NCBI GenBank assembly: GCA_024224295.1
Contig: JAAENN010000120.1
Location: 1-64,000 of the forward strand
Reading direction: 5' to 3'
Length of the DNA: 64,000 nt
Source of the DNA: Shimia sp.
Lineage (GTDB): Bacteria > Pseudomonadota > Alphaproteobacteria > Rhodobacterales > Rhodobacteraceae
The notes under the pieces were generated by a model that was not told where the DNA came from, made no database searches, and saw nothing but the letters and a program-made list of their open reading frames with translations. Shown piece after piece: positions 1 through 53,914 of this stretch (the first letter of the stretch is position 1; every line of letters begins with the position of its first letter). A program made the translations under genes and the position numbers.

Positions 1-951
1 GTCCATGATGGCGATGTGCTGGCCGCAGATGTTTTCGAGTTTCTTGGTGTCAAAACGTGCGGGGCTTTTGCCAATGCCGTCCAGATCAAACCATTCTTTG
101 GCCTGCACGTCGGTAAAGAACTCGTCATCGCCGTGGCTCCAACCGAGACGTGCGAGGTAGTTGCGCATGCCTGCAGAGGGGTAGCCCAATGCCTGATATT
201 CATGTGCGCCTGTTGCGCCGTGACGTTTGGACATCTTTTTGCCGTCCGCGCCGTGGATCAGCGGAATGTGAGCGTAAACCGGAAGATCCCAACCCATCGC
301 CTCATAGATCATCATCTGACGGGCCGCATTGTTGAGGTGATCGTCCCCGCGGATTACATGGGTTACGCCCATGTCATGGTCATCTACAACAACTGCCAAC
401 ATGTAAACCGGCGTACCGTCGGAGCGTAACAGGATCATGTCATCCAGTTGATCATTACGGATGGTCACGTCGCCCTGCACCTGATCGCGGATCACGGTTT
501 GGCCTTCACGTGGGGCTTTGATGCGGATCACATAAGGCGCGTCTGGGTGGCTGGAGTCATCGGCGTCGCGCCATGGGCTACGATAGTGGGTTGATTTACC
601 GGCGGCGCGGGCTTCATCGCGGAAGGTGGCAATTTCGTCTTGGGTAGCAAAGCACTTGTAGGCTTTGCCTTCTGCCAGCAACTGAAGTGCCACTTCGGCG
701 TGACGTTTTGCACCTTCAAATTGGCTGACAACCTCACCGTCGTGATCCAGACCAAGCCAGCTCAGACCTTGCAGGATGGCGTCGGTGGCCTCCGGTGTGG
801 AGCGCTCGCGGTCTGTGTCTTCGATGCGCAACAAAAATTTACCTCCGCGACCACGGGCATAGAGCCAGTTGAACAGCGCCGTACGTGCGCCGCCGATGTG
901 CAGATAACCGGTGGGCGATGGGGCAAAACGGGTGACGACCTGGCCTGTCAT
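1..951 (-). CDS. gltX: Glutamyl-tRNA synthetase, C-terminus cut by window edge
   Basis: Class I aminoacyl-tRNA synthetase that charges tRNA with glutamate in the cytosol. The first 317 codons are present and the reading frame runs off the left edge. Seen: the N-terminus [20 protein letters not shown] with the HIGH-type signature (HIGG) near residue 17, and the KMSK-type loop (KMSKRHG) around positions 221-240. Both halves of the Rossmann active site are therefore included; the missing part is the C-terminal anticodon-binding region. The ATG at 951 is the natural start for the family. It is divergent from comEC across an 80-base gap. Whether the specificity is GltX1-like or GltX2-like cannot be judged from the fragment. 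Confidence 0.96.
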
Positions 952-1031: not shown

Positions 1032-3074
1032 TTGCGCGTCGTCACGTCTCTGCGCCTTTCCCTTTTGCGTCAATACGGGCATCTGTTTTGCTGGGTGCCG
1101 GTCTGTTTGGGGTTGGGGATCGGGGTGTATTTTGCCCTGCCGGTGGAACCCGCCGTTGCCGTGTCGGTTGGGGTTGGCCTGATTTCTTTGAGTTTTGTGT
1201 GCTTGACGATCGGTCAGGAGGCTGACGTCGGGGCGCTGTTATGGATGGTGGCCTTGGTGCTCGCTGGTTTGTGTCTTGCGGGCGCGCGGGCGCATCGTGT
1301 GGCAGGACCGGTTTTGGAGTTTCGCTATTACGGACTGATTGAGGGGCGGATTGTGGCGATTGACCGATCGGCCTCAGACGCGGTGCGGTTGACGCTCGAA
1401 GATGTGGCCCTGGCCGAGATGACACCCGCACAAACGCCGATCCGTGTGCGCATTTCCCTGCATGGCAATCTGACGGGCACGGCGCCGATGCCGGGAAAAC
1501 TTGTCGGCACGACAGGACATCTATCGCCGCCTTCCGGGCCAGTAGAACCGGGGGGCTTTGATTTTCAGCGCCATGCCTGGTTCAAACAGATTGGCGCGGT
1601 TGGGTACACGCGGGTGCCGGTTTTGGCCATGGCACCGCCTGAAGGCGGCGGGATCTTCGGATTTCGGATGCGATTGTCGGCAGCGATCCAAGAGCGTATG
1701 GCGCCAGATGTGGCGGGATTTGCCGGTGCTGTGACCACGGGCGACCGCAGCGCGATCTCTGAAGATGTCACCGAAGCATTGCGCGGAGCCAACCTAGCGC
1801 ATTTGCTGGCGATTTCCGGGTTGCACATGGGGCTTCTGGCTGGGTTCGTGTTCGGCGCGGTAAGGTTTTGTATTGCGCTGGTGCCCACGGTGGCTCTGCG
1901 CGTGAATGGCAAAAAGATCGCTGCTTGCGTGTCCTTTGTGGCGGCCACGGGATATTTACTGCTGTCTGGAGGGGCTGTCTCTACTGAGCGGGCTTATGTG
2001 ATGACTGTGGTGGTTTTGCTGGCGGTGTTATTGGATCGGCGCGCGTTAACGCTTCGAGCGGTGGCGGTGGCGGCCACTGTCGTTTTGGTGTTTCAACCAG
2101 AGGCCTTGATGGGGCCGGGATTTCAGATGTCTTTTGCGGCTACGGCGGCTCTGGTGGGTGTGTTTGGCTGGTTGCGGGACATGCAGTGGCATTTAGGGCC
2201 TAAGTGGTTTCGACCGGTTTCAGCGGTTATAGTCTCGTCATTGGTGGCTGGGTTAGCAACTGCGCCTTTTGCAGCGATGCACTTTAATCATGTGGCGCAC
2301 TATGGCCTTTTGGCGAATGTGCTGTCGGTGCCGGTTATGGGTATTCTTGTGGTGCCCGCTGCCGTGGTGGCAGCGGTTTTGGCGCCGGTGGGGCTAGAGG
2401 CTGTGCCACTTTGGGCTATGGAGCAGGGGTTGCAGTGGATTTTGACCGTGGCGCAGTTCGTCAGTGGCTTGGATGGCGCGCGCGGGACTGTACCAAGCGG
2501 CGGGCGCTGGGTTTTGCCGGTGATTGCACTGGGAGGGCTTTGGCTGTTGCTTTGGCAGGGGCGTCCTCGGGTGGTTGGGGTCGTGGTCGTAACGGCGGGA
2601 TTTTGGCTTTGGGCTCAGGCGGAAAGGCCCGATGTTTTGATCTCCGACACCGGCGGGCTTGTGGGCGTGATGACGCCTGATGGGAGGGCCTTGTCTAAAG
2701 CCAAAGGGCAGGGGTTTGTTGCCGAGAACTGGTTGGAAAATGACGGTAGTAAGCGGGATCAGGCTGGGGCCGCAAGCCTGTGGCCTGGCGAGACGAGCCG
2801 TGTGCCATTTGTCGATTTGGCTAGCGGTGGGCGGTTGATACATGTGCAGGGGAAAACTGGAAGGTCGCTTTTTGAGGGCTGTGCGCCTGAGGATATTGCC
2901 GTGTTTTCAACATCTTTTGACGGGCAGTTGCCGTGCGAAACGCTGGACGTAAAAGACCTGGAAGCGCTTGGATCTGTGGCCCTGCGATTTGAGGGGGGGG
3001 CGCCGTTACGCAAAACGGCCCGCGAGGTGGCGGGCCGTCGGTTGTGGAACGATGCAGAGCTACGCGGTCAGTAG
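1032..3074 (+). CDS. comEC: ComEC/Rec2-family competence channel protein
   Basis: Polytopic inner-membrane protein (680 aa) of the ComEC/Rec2 family, which carries single-stranded DNA across the membrane during natural transformation. Seen: several hydrophobic helices near the N-terminus, an OB-fold-like soluble part near residues 95-190, and the family signature [10 protein letters not shown] near residue 259 followed by a long run of membrane helices. The C-terminal segment after about residue 530 has no HxHxDH metallo-beta-lactamase motif, so the nuclease-like domain of the longest family members looks reduced or absent. The start is TTG at 1032, about six bases after AGAGGA. The 3' end overlaps the convergent lexA gene by 7 bases. 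Whether the organism is naturally competent cannot be told from this gene alone. Confidence 0.9.
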
Positions 3075-3781
3075 GTACGGATCAGCCCGACCAGTTTGCC
3101 TTGCACTTTGACTTTGTCCTCGGGGTAGACGCGGGTTTCGTACGCCGGGTTGGCGGCCTCCAGGGCGATGGAACTGCCGTTGTGGTGAAACTTTTTCAGT
3201 GTGGCTTCCTGATCTTCGACCAGTGCAACGACAATATCACCATTGTCGGCAGTGGTGGTTTCAGAGATGATCACCACATCGCCGTTGTTGATGCCCGCGT
3301 CGATCATGGAATCGCCTTTGACTTCAAGCGCGTAGTGGTTTTGGCCAACTGACAGCATCTGGCCTGGAACTGTCATGTGATGGTCGACGTGGCTGATGGC
3401 CTCGATGGGTACACCAGCGGCGATTTTTCCCATCACTGGCAGCTCCCGCGCGAAGTTTTTAACTTCTTCAGGCGTCACATTGGCCGGTTGGGATGGCGAC
3501 GGATGTGGCCCGTCGATCACCTTGGGGTTGAATCCCGCCGTTGGGGCCGAGGGCGCGCCGCCCATGCTTTCAGGCAGTTTTACAATCTCTATCGCGCGGG
3601 CGCGGTGGGCGAGGCGGCGGATGAACCCCCGCTCTTCCAATGCCGTGATCAGGCGGTGGATGCCTGATTTAGAGCGCAAATCCAGCGCGTCTTTCATTTC
3701 GTCAAAGCTGGGCGGCACCCCGTCTTTTTGCAGACGGGTGTGAATGAATTCCAGCAGGTCTAGTTGCTTCTTGGTCAACAT
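3068..3781 (-). CDS. lexA: SOS repressor LexA
   Basis: Transcriptional repressor of the SOS regulon (237 aa), with self-cleavage stimulated by RecA filaments after DNA damage. Seen: an N-terminal winged helix-turn-helix (residues 1-65, beginning [13 protein letters not shown]), a long linker rich in Pro and Ala, the cleavage site AAGV with the scissile Ala122-Gly123 bond, and a C-terminal S24 peptidase dyad with Ser158 (KGDSM) and Lys196 (EATLKKF). The length is typical for alphaproteobacteria, where the linker is longer than in E. coli. The gene has its own promoter with an SOS box, described separately, so autoregulation is very likely. Confidence 0.98.
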
Positions 3782-3817: not shown

Positions 3818-3846
3818 GTTCTACGCATGTTCTTGTTTTGTGTCAA
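3818..3846 (-). promoter_or_regulatory. lexA promoter with overlapping SOS (LexA) box
   Basis: Read on the minus strand, a consensus -35 TTGACA (3841-3846) is followed by a 17-base spacer and a -10 TAGAAC (3818-3823). Overlaid on it is the alphaproteobacterial LexA direct repeat, read on the plus strand as GTTC-TACGCAT-GTTC (3818-3832). One repeat half lies inside the -10 element and the other in the spacer, so bound LexA would block RNA polymerase. The box lies 37 bases upstream of the lexA start codon. This is the classic autoregulatory arrangement. Confidence 0.93.
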
Positions 3847-50198: not shown

Positions 50199-50900
50199 TC
50201 AGGCGCTCATCTGGTTGTGTTTGCGGGCGACCCACTCTTTGGCCGTTTCCACAGCTACAGCGGCGTCGCGGCAATAAGCGTCCGCGCCAATGGCTTTGCC
50301 AAACTCTTCATTCAACGGTGCACCACCTACGAGTACAATATAGTCTTCTCGCAGCCCTTGTTCTACCAAAGAGTCGATAACAACTTTCATGTAAGGCATT
50401 GTAGTAGTTAGAAGGGCAGACATGCCAAGGATGTCTGGCTTGTGCTCCTCGAGGGCTTCCAAATAGCTCTCGACGGCGTTGTTGATACCGAGGTCCACCA
50501 CTTCGAACCCTGCGCCTTCCATCATCATGGAGACGAGGTTTTTACCGATGTCGTGAATGTCGCCCTTCACTGTACCAATTACCATTGAGCCCATACGTGG
50601 TGCCCCGGTTTCAGCCAGCAAAGGCTTCAGGATGGACATGCCACCTTTCATTGCGCCTGCGGCCAACAGAACTTCAGGGACAAAAAGGATACCATCGCGG
50701 AAGTCGGCACCAACAATCGTCATGCCGCCTACCAGCGCTTCCGTCAGGATGCGGTAGGGTTCCCAACCCCGTTCCAATAGAATATTCACAGCCTCTTCGA
50801 TCTCTTCCTTGAGACCGTCGTAGAGGTCGTCAAACATCTGTTGAACAAGTTCCTCGTCATTGAGTTCGGACAGGATGATGTCGTCTTCTTCTTCTGACAT
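50199..50900 (-). CDS. Stand-alone corrinoid (B12-binding) protein, MetH/MtbC-like
   Basis: Cobalamin-carrying methyl shuttle (233 aa). Seen: an N-terminal helical cap domain (about residues 20-100, with LTEALVGGMTIVGADFRDGI and FVPEVLLAAGAMKGGM) and a C-terminal B12 Rossmann domain with the lower-ligand histidine in GTVKGDIHDIGKNLV, the SALLTTTMPYM segment and VLVGGAPLNEEF. No homocysteine, pterin or reactivation domain is attached. It fits the cobalamin module of a split methionine synthase, with the homocysteine module at 52801. Start: ATG at 50900; the frame is open 24 codons upstream. Confidence 0.92.
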   Translation of the reverse strand: MSEEEDDIILSELNDEELVQQMFDDLYDGLKEEIEEAVNILLERGWEPYRILTEALVGGMTIVGADFRDGILFVPEVLLAAGAMKGGMSILKPLLAETGAPRMGSMVIGTVKGDIHDIGKNLVSMMMEGAGFEVVDLGINNAVESYLEALEEHKPDILGMSALLTTTMPYMKVVIDSLVEQGLREDYIVLVGGAPLNEEFGKAIGADAYCRDAAVAVETAKEWVARKHNQMSA

Positions 50901-51085
50901 GCGCGTATTCCCATACCCTGGCGGGGGCCCAATGTGGGCACCGGTTGCTATTCGTTGTATCCCAGCTTTCAATGTTTTTCAGCGGGCAAACTGTCTGAAT
51001 AGCGACATAGCCTTAGCCGAGTGCGACGTGTAGAGGCAAAAATCAGGTATGCGATGAAAGTTTCTCATCCAGATCATGGGGTTTG

Positions 51086-51114
51086 TTGCAATTGTTCTCT
51101 TTTTGTTCTATTTT
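51086..51114 (+). promoter_or_regulatory. SOS-box promoter of the radical SAM gene
   Basis: TTGCAA (51086-51091), a 17-base spacer, then TATTTT (51109-51114). The spacer holds the perfect LexA direct repeat GTTC-TCTTTTT-GTTC (51094-51108), the same form as at lexA. The -10 ends six bases before the ATG at 51121, so a transcript would begin at or next to the start codon; no ribosome site is visible, which suggests a leaderless message. LexA bound here would cover both promoter elements. Confidence 0.8.
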
Positions 51115-51120
51115 GGGCAC

Positions 51121-52206
51121 ATGTCTGAAATACTGCGGCGTAAAATTGATGAAAACCGCCGGAAGGCACGGGGCGCGCGGAGCAATGCGTCTGGTCGGTA
51201 TGAGCCTTTACGCGAAGAAGTACAGGACGGTTGGGACATTCCGGAAGACCTGGCGGCGTTTGTGACAGAGGTGAGTGAGGAGCGTCCGCGCTCCGTTGTT
51301 TCTCGTAATACGTCGCCGGATATTCCTTTCGACCGGTCTCTCAACCCTTACCGGGGGTGTGAGCATGGTTGCACCTATTGTTTTGCGCGGCCCACACATG
51401 CCTATCTGGGGCTGTCGCCGGGGTTGGATTTTGAAAGCAAGTTGGTGGCTCGGCCTAAGGCGGCGGCGGTGCTGGAAAAGGAGTTGCAGCGTAAGTCCTA
51501 TCAACCCGGCGTGTTGGCGATTGGCACCAACACTGATCCGTATCAGCCAATTGAGCGGCGCTATCGGGTGATGCGGTCAGTTCTTGAGCTGTTACAGCGT
51601 TACAACCACCCTGTAGCGATCACCACCAAAGGCACATTGGTGGAACGCGATATCGACATTTTGAGCGACATGGCTGCCAAAGGCCTGGCACAGGTTGGGA
51701 TTTCTCTGACGACGATGGATGTGGCGTTGTCGCGGGCGATGGAACCGCGATGTCCCCTGCCTAATCGGCGGTTGGAGATCATTCGAAGACTCACAGAGGC
51801 GGGTATTCCTGTGCGGGCGATGTTGGCGCCGGTGGTTCCAGGCTTGACAGATCACGAGGTGGAGGCGTTGCTGGAGGCGGCTTCGGAAGCGGGAGCGACG
51901 GGGATGGCCTGGATCATGTTGCGACTGCCTATGGAGGTGGCGCCGTTATTTGAGGAATGGCTGGAGGCGGCCTATCCGGGGCGTGCGGCAAAGGTCCTGA
52001 CGCGGATGCGGGAGATGCATGGCGGGTCACTGTACCATGCCGAGTTCAATAAACGTATGCGGGGTAAGGGGATCTATGCAGAGATGATCGCTCAGAGAGT
52101 GCAGAAGGCCCGTGTGCGGTTTGGCTTGGACACAGAGATGCCCAAGCTGCGCTGCGATCTGTTTGAGGTGCCGCTGGCGCGTGATGGACAGTTAGCGCTG
52201 TTTTAA
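51121..52206 (+). CDS. PA0069-family (COG1533, SplB-like) radical SAM protein, SOS-linked
   Basis: Radical SAM enzyme (361 aa). Seen: the three-cysteine cluster motif YRGCEHGCTYCFARPTH near residue 95, the GTNTDPYQPIERRYRVMRSV segment typical of PA0069/COG1533 proteins, and a C-terminal extension. The superfamily includes spore photoproduct lyase, but the substrate of this branch is not known to me. ATG at 51121 is chosen because the frame upstream (from 51076) runs through the promoter and would only add a hydrophobic stretch. The LexA box in its promoter supports a part in DNA damage responses. Confidence 0.88.
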   Translation: MSEILRRKIDENRRKARGARSNASGRYEPLREEVQDGWDIPEDLAAFVTEVSEERPRSVVSRNTSPDIPFDRSLNPYRGCEHGCTYCFARPTHAYLGLSPGLDFESKLVARPKAAAVLEKELQRKSYQPGVLAIGTNTDPYQPIERRYRVMRSVLELLQRYNHPVAITTKGTLVERDIDILSDMAAKGLAQVGISLTTMDVALSRAMEPRCPLPNRRLEIIRRLTEAGIPVRAMLAPVVPGLTDHEVEALLEAASEAGATGMAWIMLRLPMEVAPLFEEWLEAAYPGRAAKVLTRMREMHGGSLYHAEFNKRMRGKGIYAEMIAQRVQKARVRFGLDTEMPKLRCDLFEVPLARDGQLALF

Positions 52207-52368
52207 AGGCTTTGACCCCGAGAAGGCCGCGACTTCCCTGAAGGTTTTCTGCCATGAGAATAGTGGCGGAGAAATGCCGAGCGCATCGGAAGGGGACTGC
52301 GGTAGGGTGACAGTCGCGTCGGTACGGAGTAGGGCGGGCGGACCACTCACAGAAGACTGACGACCAAA

Positions 52369-52758
52369 ATGAAAAGACTAATTGCGGCTGCCGTTTTGGT
52401 GGCCTCGCCCGTTTGGGCGGATGTGCAGGTGCGCGACGCGGATACGATTGTTGTGGACGGCACGCCGGTGCGCTTTCAAGGGGTTGATGCGCCGGAGCTT
52501 AAGACCCGCGCCGGCAAAGATGCCAAGCGGTGGACGGTGAACTACCTACGCGACAAAGAAATAACCTGTAATCTGACTGGCGAGCGGTCGTATGATCGCT
52601 ACATCGGCGTGTGTTACGCCGATGGGCAGGACATAGGTGCGGCGGTGATCGCGGCGGGGCACGCGCTGGATTGTGCGCGCTATTCCGGGGGGCGTTATCG
52701 CCACTTGGAAAAGGCATCTGCGAAAAGCCGGATCAAACGAGCGGGCTATTGCAGTTAA
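52369..52758 (+). CDS. Secreted thermonuclease-family (SNase-like) protein
   Basis: Small protein (129 aa) with signal peptide MKRLIAAAVLVASPVWADVQ, so probably periplasmic or secreted. The SNase fold shows VRDADTIVVDGTPVRFQGVD, then APELKTRAGKDAK, the arginine-containing TGERSYDRYIGVCYADGQDI, and AVIAAGHALDCARYSGGRY. The pattern of aspartates and arginines resembles active nucleases, but activity cannot be proven by sequence. The gene is alone between the radical SAM gene and a terminator. Confidence 0.88.
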   Translation: MKRLIAAAVLVASPVWADVQVRDADTIVVDGTPVRFQGVDAPELKTRAGKDAKRWTVNYLRDKEITCNLTGERSYDRYIGVCYADGQDIGAAVIAAGHALDCARYSGGRYRHLEKASAKSRIKRAGYCS

Positions 52759-52764
52759 GGAAAA

Positions 52765-52789
52765 GGCGCCGATGATCGGCGCTTTTTTG
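52765..52789 (+). terminator. Terminator after the SNase-like gene
   Basis: GGCGCCGATGATCGGCGC palindrome followed by six T. It ends 11 bases before the convergent bmt-type gene stop. Confidence 0.85.
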
Positions 52790-52800
52790 TTGGTCCAGGC

Positions 52801-53820
52801 TTAGCCGCGACGGCGGCGGCCGCGGCGTTCGCGGGCCGGGACAGCGGCGTCATCGCCGGTGCCGTCGTTGGCAGAGGAGAATCCGCCCAACGCTTCGGCA
52901 ATGGCTTCTAGGGAAGGACGATCCCCACGCGGACGGTTTTCCAGTGCTTCGCGCATGGCTTTTAGGTGGTTTGGCATGGTACCGCAGCAGCCGCCAATGA
53001 TGGTTGCGCCACAGTCGCGTGCCATTACGGCATAGTCTGCCATCAGTTCCGGCGTGCCATCATAGTGGATGTGGCCGTCGTGGTATTTCGGAATTCCGGC
53101 GTTGCCTTTGGCCACGATCGGGGTTTCGGTGCCTTGGGCGGAGAAGCCGAGCACGGTGCGCAGCAGGTCTGGTGCGCCGGTGCCGCAGTTGGCACCAAAG
53201 CCCAAAGGAGTGTTGGGCAAGCTATTGACCAGTTGAACCATATCGGCAGAGGTCACGCCCATCATGGTGCGCCCTGCGGTGTCAAAGCTCATGGTGCCAA
53301 CCCACGGCATGTCCGCTAAGGCGAAGGCTTCGGCGGCCGCTTTGTACTCTTCTGGAGCGGAGATGGTCTCCAGCCAAAGAACGTCCGCGCCGCCTTCCTT
53401 CAGTCCTTCGGCCTGTTCGTGGAACATTTCAACGGCGTCCGCATGGCTGAGTGTGCCGACGGGTTCCATGATATCGCCGGTCGGGCCAACGGAGCCCGCG
53501 ACGATCACAGGATGGCCGGCGGCGTCAGCTACGTCGCGACCTATTTCGGCGGCTAGGCGGTTGAGTTCACGCACGCGGTTTTGGGCGTCGTGCAGTTTTA
53601 GGCGTGAGGCATTGCCGCCAAAGGAGTTGGTCAGAAAAATGTCAGAGCCGTTGTCAACCGCCAGGCTGTAGAGTTTCTTTATGTTCTGCGGCTCATCTGC
53701 GTTCCAGAGTTCCGGTGCGTCGCCGGAGCTGAGACCCATGTTGAACAGGTTTGTGCCGGTGGCGCCGTCGGCCATGAGCCAGTCACGGGTTTCCAAAAGC
53801 TTGGAGAGGGCGTTGGTCAT
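52801..53820 (-). CDS. bmt: Homocysteine S-methyltransferase (BmtA / MetH homocysteine module)
   Basis: Zinc-dependent TIM-barrel methyltransferase (339 aa) that moves a methyl group to homocysteine. Seen: the N-terminal DWLMADGATGTNLFNMGL, LTNSFGGNASRLKLH, the zinc cysteines in GFGANCGTGAPD and IIGGCCGTMPNH, and an arginine-rich tail (RERRGRRRRG). Annotated in relatives as betaine-homocysteine methyltransferase, it may instead use a methylcorrinoid as partner of the protein at 50199. Start: ATG at 53820 after AAGGAG. The pterin-binding module is not in the window. Confidence 0.9.
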   Translation of the reverse strand: MTNALSKLLETRDWLMADGATGTNLFNMGLSSGDAPELWNADEPQNIKKLYSLAVDNGSDIFLTNSFGGNASRLKLHDAQNRVRELNRLAAEIGRDVADAAGHPVIVAGSVGPTGDIMEPVGTLSHADAVEMFHEQAEGLKEGGADVLWLETISAPEEYKAAAEAFALADMPWVGTMSFDTAGRTMMGVTSADMVQLVNSLPNTPLGFGANCGTGAPDLLRTVLGFSAQGTETPIVAKGNAGIPKYHDGHIHYDGTPELMADYAVMARDCGATIIGGCCGTMPNHLKAMREALENRPRGDRPSLEAIAEALGGFSSANDGTGDDAAVPARERRGRRRRG

Positions 53821-53914
53821 CAGAAACTCCTTAGGGCGCGGCGTACCGCGTTTCATTTGCGCAGCGATGTGCCACGGGTGGGGCCGGGGCACAACTCAAT
53901 TTGATGCAAGACCA

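Follow-up and report, generated by a model that had tools for sequence, protein, structure and literature searches.

A PA0069-family radical SAM gene of Shimia sp. under predicted LexA control, with a probably leaderless message

Introduction

The question raised by this locus is how a gene is controlled and read when its start codon lies six bases beyond a promoter that is itself filled by a LexA box, and what the enzyme it encodes might do. The gene codes for a radical SAM protein of the PA0069 family and lies in a 64-kb stretch of DNA from Shimia sp. that was analysed as a whole and is called the window here. It is well established that LexA represses and that RecA drives its release, and radical SAM chemistry is likewise established knowledge. 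PA0069 itself reportedly belongs to the LexA regulon of Pseudomonas aeruginosa, a finding that is said to go back to Cirz in 2006.

A tie between the SOS response and genes of this kind has been in print for some time. LexA control of the COG1533 gene 'splB' was predicted in 2012 for alpha- and beta-proteobacteria, in sections that tabulate Rhodobacter sphaeroides and Paracoccus denitrificans among the species (PMC3323433). COG1533 has also been called SOS-regulated in several species, in a passage with a P. aeruginosa study among the sources cited (PMC8565304), and a radical SAM protein is placed in the core Gram-positive and in the Balneolaeota LexA regulons (PMC7739468, in the passages concerned). 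The SOS link was therefore treated as prior knowledge. Within the literature searched, the leaderless layout described below looks new and the SOS link does not: neither that layout nor the shift in operator register nor the missing donor cysteine was found there, and in the passages retrieved the match for PA0069 was a strain name. Among the papers listed on leaderless messages together with LexA, no title or opening of an abstract names the gene. The main text of two recent Caulobacter SOS papers does not mention radical SAM, and the word leaderless is absent from one of them.

The gene, its promoter and the operator

The features on which the argument turns are as follows.

51086..51091, + strand: -35 element TTGCAA, at -8..-3 from the box and conserved in the 127-row logo
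51094..51108, + strand: LexA box GTTC-N7-GTTC, the predicted operator, GTTCTCTTTTTGTTC, with an exact box in 126/138 orthologues
51109..51114, + strand: -10 element TATTTT, of which the T at +15, the A at +16 and the last T at +20 (counted from the box) are conserved
51121..51123, + strand: start codon ATG, with the predicted transcription start on its A, inferred from ATG-aligned logos
51121..52206, + strand: PA0069-family radical SAM gene, 361 amino acids from the predicted leaderless ATG at 51121, based on the open reading frame, profile match and start conservation
51358..51384, + strand: CxxxCxxC 4Fe-4S motif (C80, C84, C87), then F88, at the place of Tyr99 in the spore photoproduct lyase (SPL) of Bacillus subtilis
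51526..51528, + strand: Thr136 of IGTNTDP, at or beside the place of the SPL hydrogen-donor cysteine (Cys141 in B. subtilis)
51076..51120, + strand: alternative in-frame upstream start, judged unused, upstream of the -35 element
3068..3781, - strand: lexA, the repressor gene (LexA match G000:C120:3074-3781, 183 bits)
3818..3832, + strand: box upstream of lexA, reversed relative to lexA, from a motif scan of the window

A sequence-only reading of the window had placed the box in a 17-base spacer between TTGCAA and TATTTT, with the -10 element ending six bases before the ATG, and this was borne out letter for letter: the spacer of this sigma-70-type promoter runs from 51092 to 51108 and holds GTTCTCTTTTTGTTC. 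The same reading had the identical form of box controlling lexA; a box is present there, but read along lexA it is GAAC-N7-GAAC, in the opposite orientation.

The bare box says little on its own. The window holds three exact copies against 2.0 expected, and at least three were reached in 30 of 100 shuffles, so that by count alone the box is without significance in 64 kb and conservation decides. The promoter context is more distinctive: a matrix built from the orthologues together with the window site itself gave this site 43.4 and the next best box of its own genome 32.4, the boxes scored being those in 47 loci, a part of the genome's 80 exact boxes. Two boxes of the genome with good context, one ahead of a cytochrome c' gene (score 32.4) and one ahead of a gene of the arginase family (18.2; L146/L149, G000:C282/C339), mark either unexpected SOS candidates or chance.

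Conservation of the LexA operator

With one genome taken per genus, 139 of 198 genomes in the taxonomic family of the window proved to carry a PA0069-family gene, and all 138 non-self loci served as the orthologue set. A search for the box upstream of the orthologues, proposed beforehand as the way to check the SOS link, found the exact forward box in 126 of the 138 and a box on either strand in 127, between -300 and +60, counted from the place of the query's first residue. A control pattern with the letters reversed was met in 2/138 forward and 0/138 in reverse. The background outside the tested region was 15 boxes in 500,518 bases, or 0.011 per 360 bp, which puts about 1.5 boxes by chance in 138 loci. 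The exact forward box is missing from 12 orthologues: L169 and L203 offer little DNA upstream, L178 carries the box in reverse, L161 and L212 show weaker sites, and the other seven each have a box with one mismatch immediately ahead of the ATG. In four loci, three from Ruegeria and one other (L073, L088, L090, L178), the sole exact box near the start is GAAC-N7-GAAC.

Wider sampling gave a similar picture among the Alphaproteobacteria and a different operator beyond them. The loci of the class and phylum searches are the best scorers, several sharing a genus, and eight more alpha loci were picked by hand; the family is carried by 93 of 190 class genomes and 88 of 249 phylum genomes. The box is present on either strand in 78 of the 80 named loci, which are those closest to the query. 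A further 66 alpha loci, some of them sharing a genus, include 58 with the forward box. The eight alpha loci without a forward box comprise one with the box reversed (L292), five with a forward one-mismatch site, one with a reversed one-mismatch site only (L359), and L323, where no site within one mismatch was found; lexA is present in all of their genomes, those of L323 and L359 included. Among the non-alpha Pseudomonadota, represented by all 32 loci found in the phylum search, GTTC-N7-GTTC occurs in 0/32. Instead, CTGT-N8-ACAG, the other known type of LexA operator, stands before 23 of the 32, and the 80,850 bases scanned downstream in these loci contain it once. The operator sequence thus switches in the non-alphas, and the gene stays under an SOS operator.

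The conservation is confined to the site. Between genera, identity in the stretch 30-110 bases above the box is 27%, close to what is seen between unrelated DNA, while promoter and box together are 65% identical, and the promoter still 52% once the eight fixed letters of the box are omitted (ungapped identities over 2000 random pairs from 88 rows, which were chosen for having box and ATG). Since the flanks have so diverged and the promoter has not, we conclude that the conservation of box and promoter is selected.

A functionless chance match could appeal to the count in the window, where three boxes hardly exceed expectation. It was rejected, and we give it practically no weight, in view of the conservation (126 of 138 against about 1.5), the nearly dissimilar flanks and the change of operator in the non-alphas. 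LexA (SOS) control of the PA0069-family gene is predicted with high confidence from these comparisons. The SOS link put forward in the sequence-only reading thus gained strong comparative support, without being new, having been predicted in print in 2012. Given how common the family is, and since its link to LexA persists when the operator changes, the family is probably a core and uncharacterised component of the damage response.

A start codon tied to the promoter

When 127 rows (the 126 orthologues and the window) were aligned on the box, the logo showed the box at 0..14, preceded by TTG at -8..-6 and followed by TA...T at 15..20 and by the ATG at 27. As start we took the first ATG or GTG in frame from +22 onward; 89 rows have it at +27, 11 each at +26 and +28, three at +29 and one at +25, which places 115 of 127 within +25..+29. 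A few of the 12 out-of-register rows (e.g., L206, L048, L166) may be misplaced by this rule. Starts at +26, +27 and +28 lie in three frames, and so the start codon keeps to the promoter rather than to the frame. The logo aligned on the ATG in the 115 Rhodobacteraceae rows has T-35, T-34 and G-33, then T-12 at 0.64, A-11 at 0.76, T-7 at 0.72 and C-1 at 0.66.

The other alphas were represented by 64 loci (after removal of L318 and L319 as members of the window's family), 57 of them with a box. In 42 of these 57 the start lies at +36..+42 from the box, and the ATG-aligned logo again shows T-35 and T-34, with T-12 at 0.55, A-11 at 0.60, T-7 at 0.79 and C-1 at 0.86. There is no clear preference for G-33 in these 42, the -35 element falls within the box, and the letters of the -10 element are moderately conserved. 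As read from the two logos, the operator has shifted by some 12 bp against the promoter and the distance from the -10 element to the ATG has been kept. The distance between the end of TANNNT and the start is exactly six bases in 57/115 and 20/42 rows of the two groups; the motif also ends 13 bases before the start in 23/115, mostly from letters of the box, and one base before it in 7/42.

Ribosome-binding sites are scarce at these starts. A Shine-Dalgarno (SD)-like motif precedes 2 of the 115 in-register starts against 5 of the 12 out-of-register ones, and two neighbouring genes used as controls have it at 28/34 and 21/32 starts. The control is uneven, as DUF1638 (6/21) and RNase HII (5/24) are also low; all control starts were chosen automatically. 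With wider registers (+25..+29 or +36..+42) the two groups came to 119 and 44 rows, and the motif was seen in 5 and 10 of them, the latter being other-alpha starts of the radical SAM gene.

The layout is also close to a signature of the PA0069-family gene, since most whole-genome matches are to this gene. A search for the box, TANNNT, six bases and ATG in 197 genomes of the family gave 61 matches, 57 of them the radical SAM gene, and the second geometry in 181 alpha genomes gave 20, of which 16 were this gene; the patterns read backwards gave none for the first geometry and one for the second. The Rhizobiales-type loci, a grouping taken from database titles, speak against the layout: 38 of the 39 named ones have the box, 78-215 bp upstream of the query's first-residue position, and in many of them the leaderless place holds no ATG.

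An SOS-controlled gene with an ordinary leader from another promoter, the spacing of the ATG being a by-product of a compact promoter, would fit the in-frame ATG at 51076 and the SD-like motifs at 10 of 44 other-alpha starts. We regard this as unlikely, because no in-frame start exists upstream of the -35 element in 51 of the 89 rows with the ATG at +27, because the first starts at +26, +27 and +28 occupy three frames, and because the motif is so rare in register. The start at 51076, which lies upstream of the -35 element, was rejected. The leaderless message suggested in the sequence-only reading is therefore strongly supported by comparative sequence, with starts at +25..+29 in most rows, and we are fairly confident that the message begins at the start codon; transcription would start on the A of the ATG at 51121. 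Leaderless AUG messages can be initiated, as is well known.

Two other genes of the same genome were noted for their boxes. An AlkZ-like DNA glycosylase gene (PF06224, 230.6 bits) has a box in leaderless geometry with the ATG at +39 (G000:C72:25956-25997; L414, L142:307-1476, - strand), and a look-alike in another genome of the genus has the same layout (G219:C1:2315198; L413:1540-2727, + strand); it is possible that this gene is an SOS-controlled crosslink glycosylase. Before mmcB (PF06319; L144:1527-1997, G000:C139) a LexA box starts 26 bases upstream of the ATG, and this gene may also be leaderless.

The protein and its relation to spore photoproduct lyase

The encoded protein matches NF033668 (rSAM_PA0069) over its full length, with 493.2 bits against a cut-off of 360, which makes it a member of the family, and it matches the radical SAM domain PF04055 with 71.6 bits. 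In an alignment of 51 sequences there are three invariant cysteines, C80, C84 and C87, all in CxxxCxxC. Distant relatives are found in 12 virus records (H1-H12), at 28-36% identity over about half the protein, one being annotated as PA0069 family (Dulem virus 36) and others residing in Acidianus viruses; PHROG 13321 matches at 148.8 bits.

An AlphaFold2 model was obtained with a mean pLDDT of 78.7 and a pTM of 0.80, the pLDDT falling below 50 around the cluster motif. Its four best matches in the PDB are all SPL entries (4fhc, 4fhf, 4k9r and 4rh0), at TM 0.50-0.57, an rmsd of about 6 Å and 14% identity, with the model weak at the cluster loop; SkfB, MgmA and lipoyl synthase also match, below SPL. 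As modelled, the fold is nearest to SPL, and the match is modest. Sequence searches of the PDB returned no match at E up to 1 for the single protein and seven weak matches for the profile, none of them SPL and the best at E 0.015. A direct comparison of profiles (hhalign) with three true SPLs aligned the CxxxCxxC and TDP motifs, weakly (probability 26%, E 7e-4).

The alignment drew attention to the end of the SPL reaction. The fourth conserved cysteine of SPL, Cys141 in B. subtilis, is described as the hydrogen donor (PMC3742179, in the part concerned), and the alignment of true SPLs has four invariant cysteines, in agreement with that passage. In the profile alignment the fourth falls opposite a gap or Thr136, a position held by Thr in 49 and Ser in 2 of the 51 sequences. 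Over all loci, no cysteine was found at the donor place in any of 316, that is, 0/310 with the G...D.Y motif and none in the six exceptions; the 310 have Thr in 263 and otherwise Ser, Ala, Ile, Val, Met or Gly. At the place of Tyr99, a part of the radical-transfer chain of SPL, the query has Phe88, and Phe occupies it in 48 of the 51 sequences (Tyr in 3) and in 272 of the 316 loci (Tyr in 44).

Could the gene nevertheless be a true spore photoproduct lyase (splB) that repairs thymine dimers by the SPL mechanism? The best PDB folds, the CxxxCxxC and TDP motifs common to both and the SOS control reported for 'splB' in the relevant sections of PMC3323433 would all suit such an assignment. PF20903, the Pfam family for SPL, is nevertheless not among the matches of the protein at E up to 1, whereas a true SPL (L395) scores 272 bits; true SPLs turned up in four of the 249 phylum genomes, which belong to a single genus and also carry a PA0069-family gene. 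Membership in SPL was rejected on the missing PF20903 match, the missing donor cysteine and the Phe in place of Tyr99, and we consider a true SPL highly improbable here. The working of the PA0069-family enzyme would resemble that of SPL at most in outline. The missing catalytic cysteine argues against the SPL reaction, and it should redirect assays away from the reading as splB or photoreactivation.

Gene neighbours and possible function

At 50199-53892 of the window the radical SAM gene is flanked by opposite-strand genes for a corrinoid-protein-like and a homocysteine-methyltransferase-like product, names that are our own reading of the sequences, and this surrounding on the other strand is common to most named Rhodobacteraceae loci. 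A small staphylococcal-nuclease-like gene (PF00565) lies on the same strand 162 bases downstream, at 52369-52758; it was not recognised among the 30 neighbour clusters listed. No single partner emerged from those 30 clusters, and the Rhizobiales-type loci have other genes. Of the Rhizobiales-type loci 36 of 39, and of the other alpha loci 31 of 64, have an RNase HII motif on the same strand no more than 1.2 kb downstream (L091-L140, L266-L317 and others), against 6/136 in the window's family, 0/41 named Rhodobacteraceae and 0/32 non-alphas, and RNase HII may belong to an SOS operon in the first two groups.

The sequence-only reading had seen here its best lead for a new function; such a function is a candidate at best. 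The SPL-like fold together with SOS control suggests that the enzyme works on damaged nucleic acid, with the RNase HII motif as modest support, and on this footing a role in nucleic-acid repair is slightly favoured. An enzyme that serves the damage response through a target other than DNA (an RNA, a protein or a cofactor), for instance in the modification of tRNA or the ribosome or in making a signal, is a less likely but real contender: radical SAM folds are versatile, as the lesser matches to the model illustrate, and no DNA-binding domain was recognised by NCBIfam or Pfam. Against it stand the closeness of the fold to SPL and the frequent RNase HII motif downstream in other alphas, which may be mere neighbourhood.

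A bolder proposal joins both halves of the problem, and as a joint claim it is offered only tentatively. The PA0069 family would be widespread, induced by the SOS response, and would directly reverse some DNA lesion that is not the spore photoproduct, using SPL-like radical chemistry without the donor cysteine (Thr in most). At the same time, leaderless translation would have been selected across much of the Alphaproteobacteria, and kept when the operator moved by about 12 bp, so that the protein could be made when ordinary initiation is impaired by damage.

Proposed mechanism

The box, the promoter, the register of the start, their conservation, the operator switch and the missing cysteine can be read from the sequences themselves. 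From these we infer repression, induction, the start of transcription and the class of substrate. A LexA dimer bound to the direct-repeat box in the promoter spacer would block RNA polymerase, and upon DNA damage the inactivation of LexA would permit transcription from the A of the ATG at 51121. The resulting message, having neither a leader nor a ribosome-binding site, would be read as a leaderless mRNA. The PA0069-family enzyme would then most likely turn a 5'-deoxyadenosyl radical on a damaged nucleic-acid substrate, in a reaction that could not finish as in SPL because the SPL hydrogen-donor cysteine is missing. Taken whole, the account that we find rather more probable than otherwise, given the sequence comparisons and the model, is that of a radical SAM enzyme with the SPL fold, repressed by LexA, made from a leaderless message and directed at damaged nucleic acid.

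Comparison with known systems

The closest precedent is the LexA-regulated 'splB' of PMC3323433, which as far as its text allows is the same gene family, with the same class of box and with Rhodobacteraceae tabulated. In the portions bearing on it, that paper calls splB a photolyase or photoreactivation enzyme and states that the trait was not seen in the gamma group it studied; a leaderless message, the start register and the missing cysteine are absent from its sections 7 and 8. SPL itself (4fhc, 4fhf, 4k9r, 4rh0; PF20903) is alike in being the nearest fold and in the CxxxCxxC and TDP motifs, but it differs in its match to PF20903 and in having the hydrogen-donor cysteine and Tyr99, where the query has no such match, no such cysteine and a Phe.

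Among protein families, NF033668 (rSAM_PA0069), of which the query is a member, is a hypothetical equivalog. The Rv2578c-family radical SAM proteins (NF038135) are related at 247 bits, below that family's cut-off of 430. The radical SAM protein of the Gram-positive LexA regulon is presumably Rv2578c, and no report of Rv2578c with LexA was found in the literature searched.

For the message, the comparison is with Sinorhizobium meliloti, where 171 leaderless mRNAs were mapped, according to the passages concerned, and where, as predicted here, the transcription start is on the first base of the start codon, which is AUG only (PMC3616915). The main text of that study is without mention of LexA, and its relevant passages do not name the radical SAM gene. 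The layout of the PA0069-family gene, if true, would show in clear form how an inducible repressor governs a message that is both conserved and leaderless.
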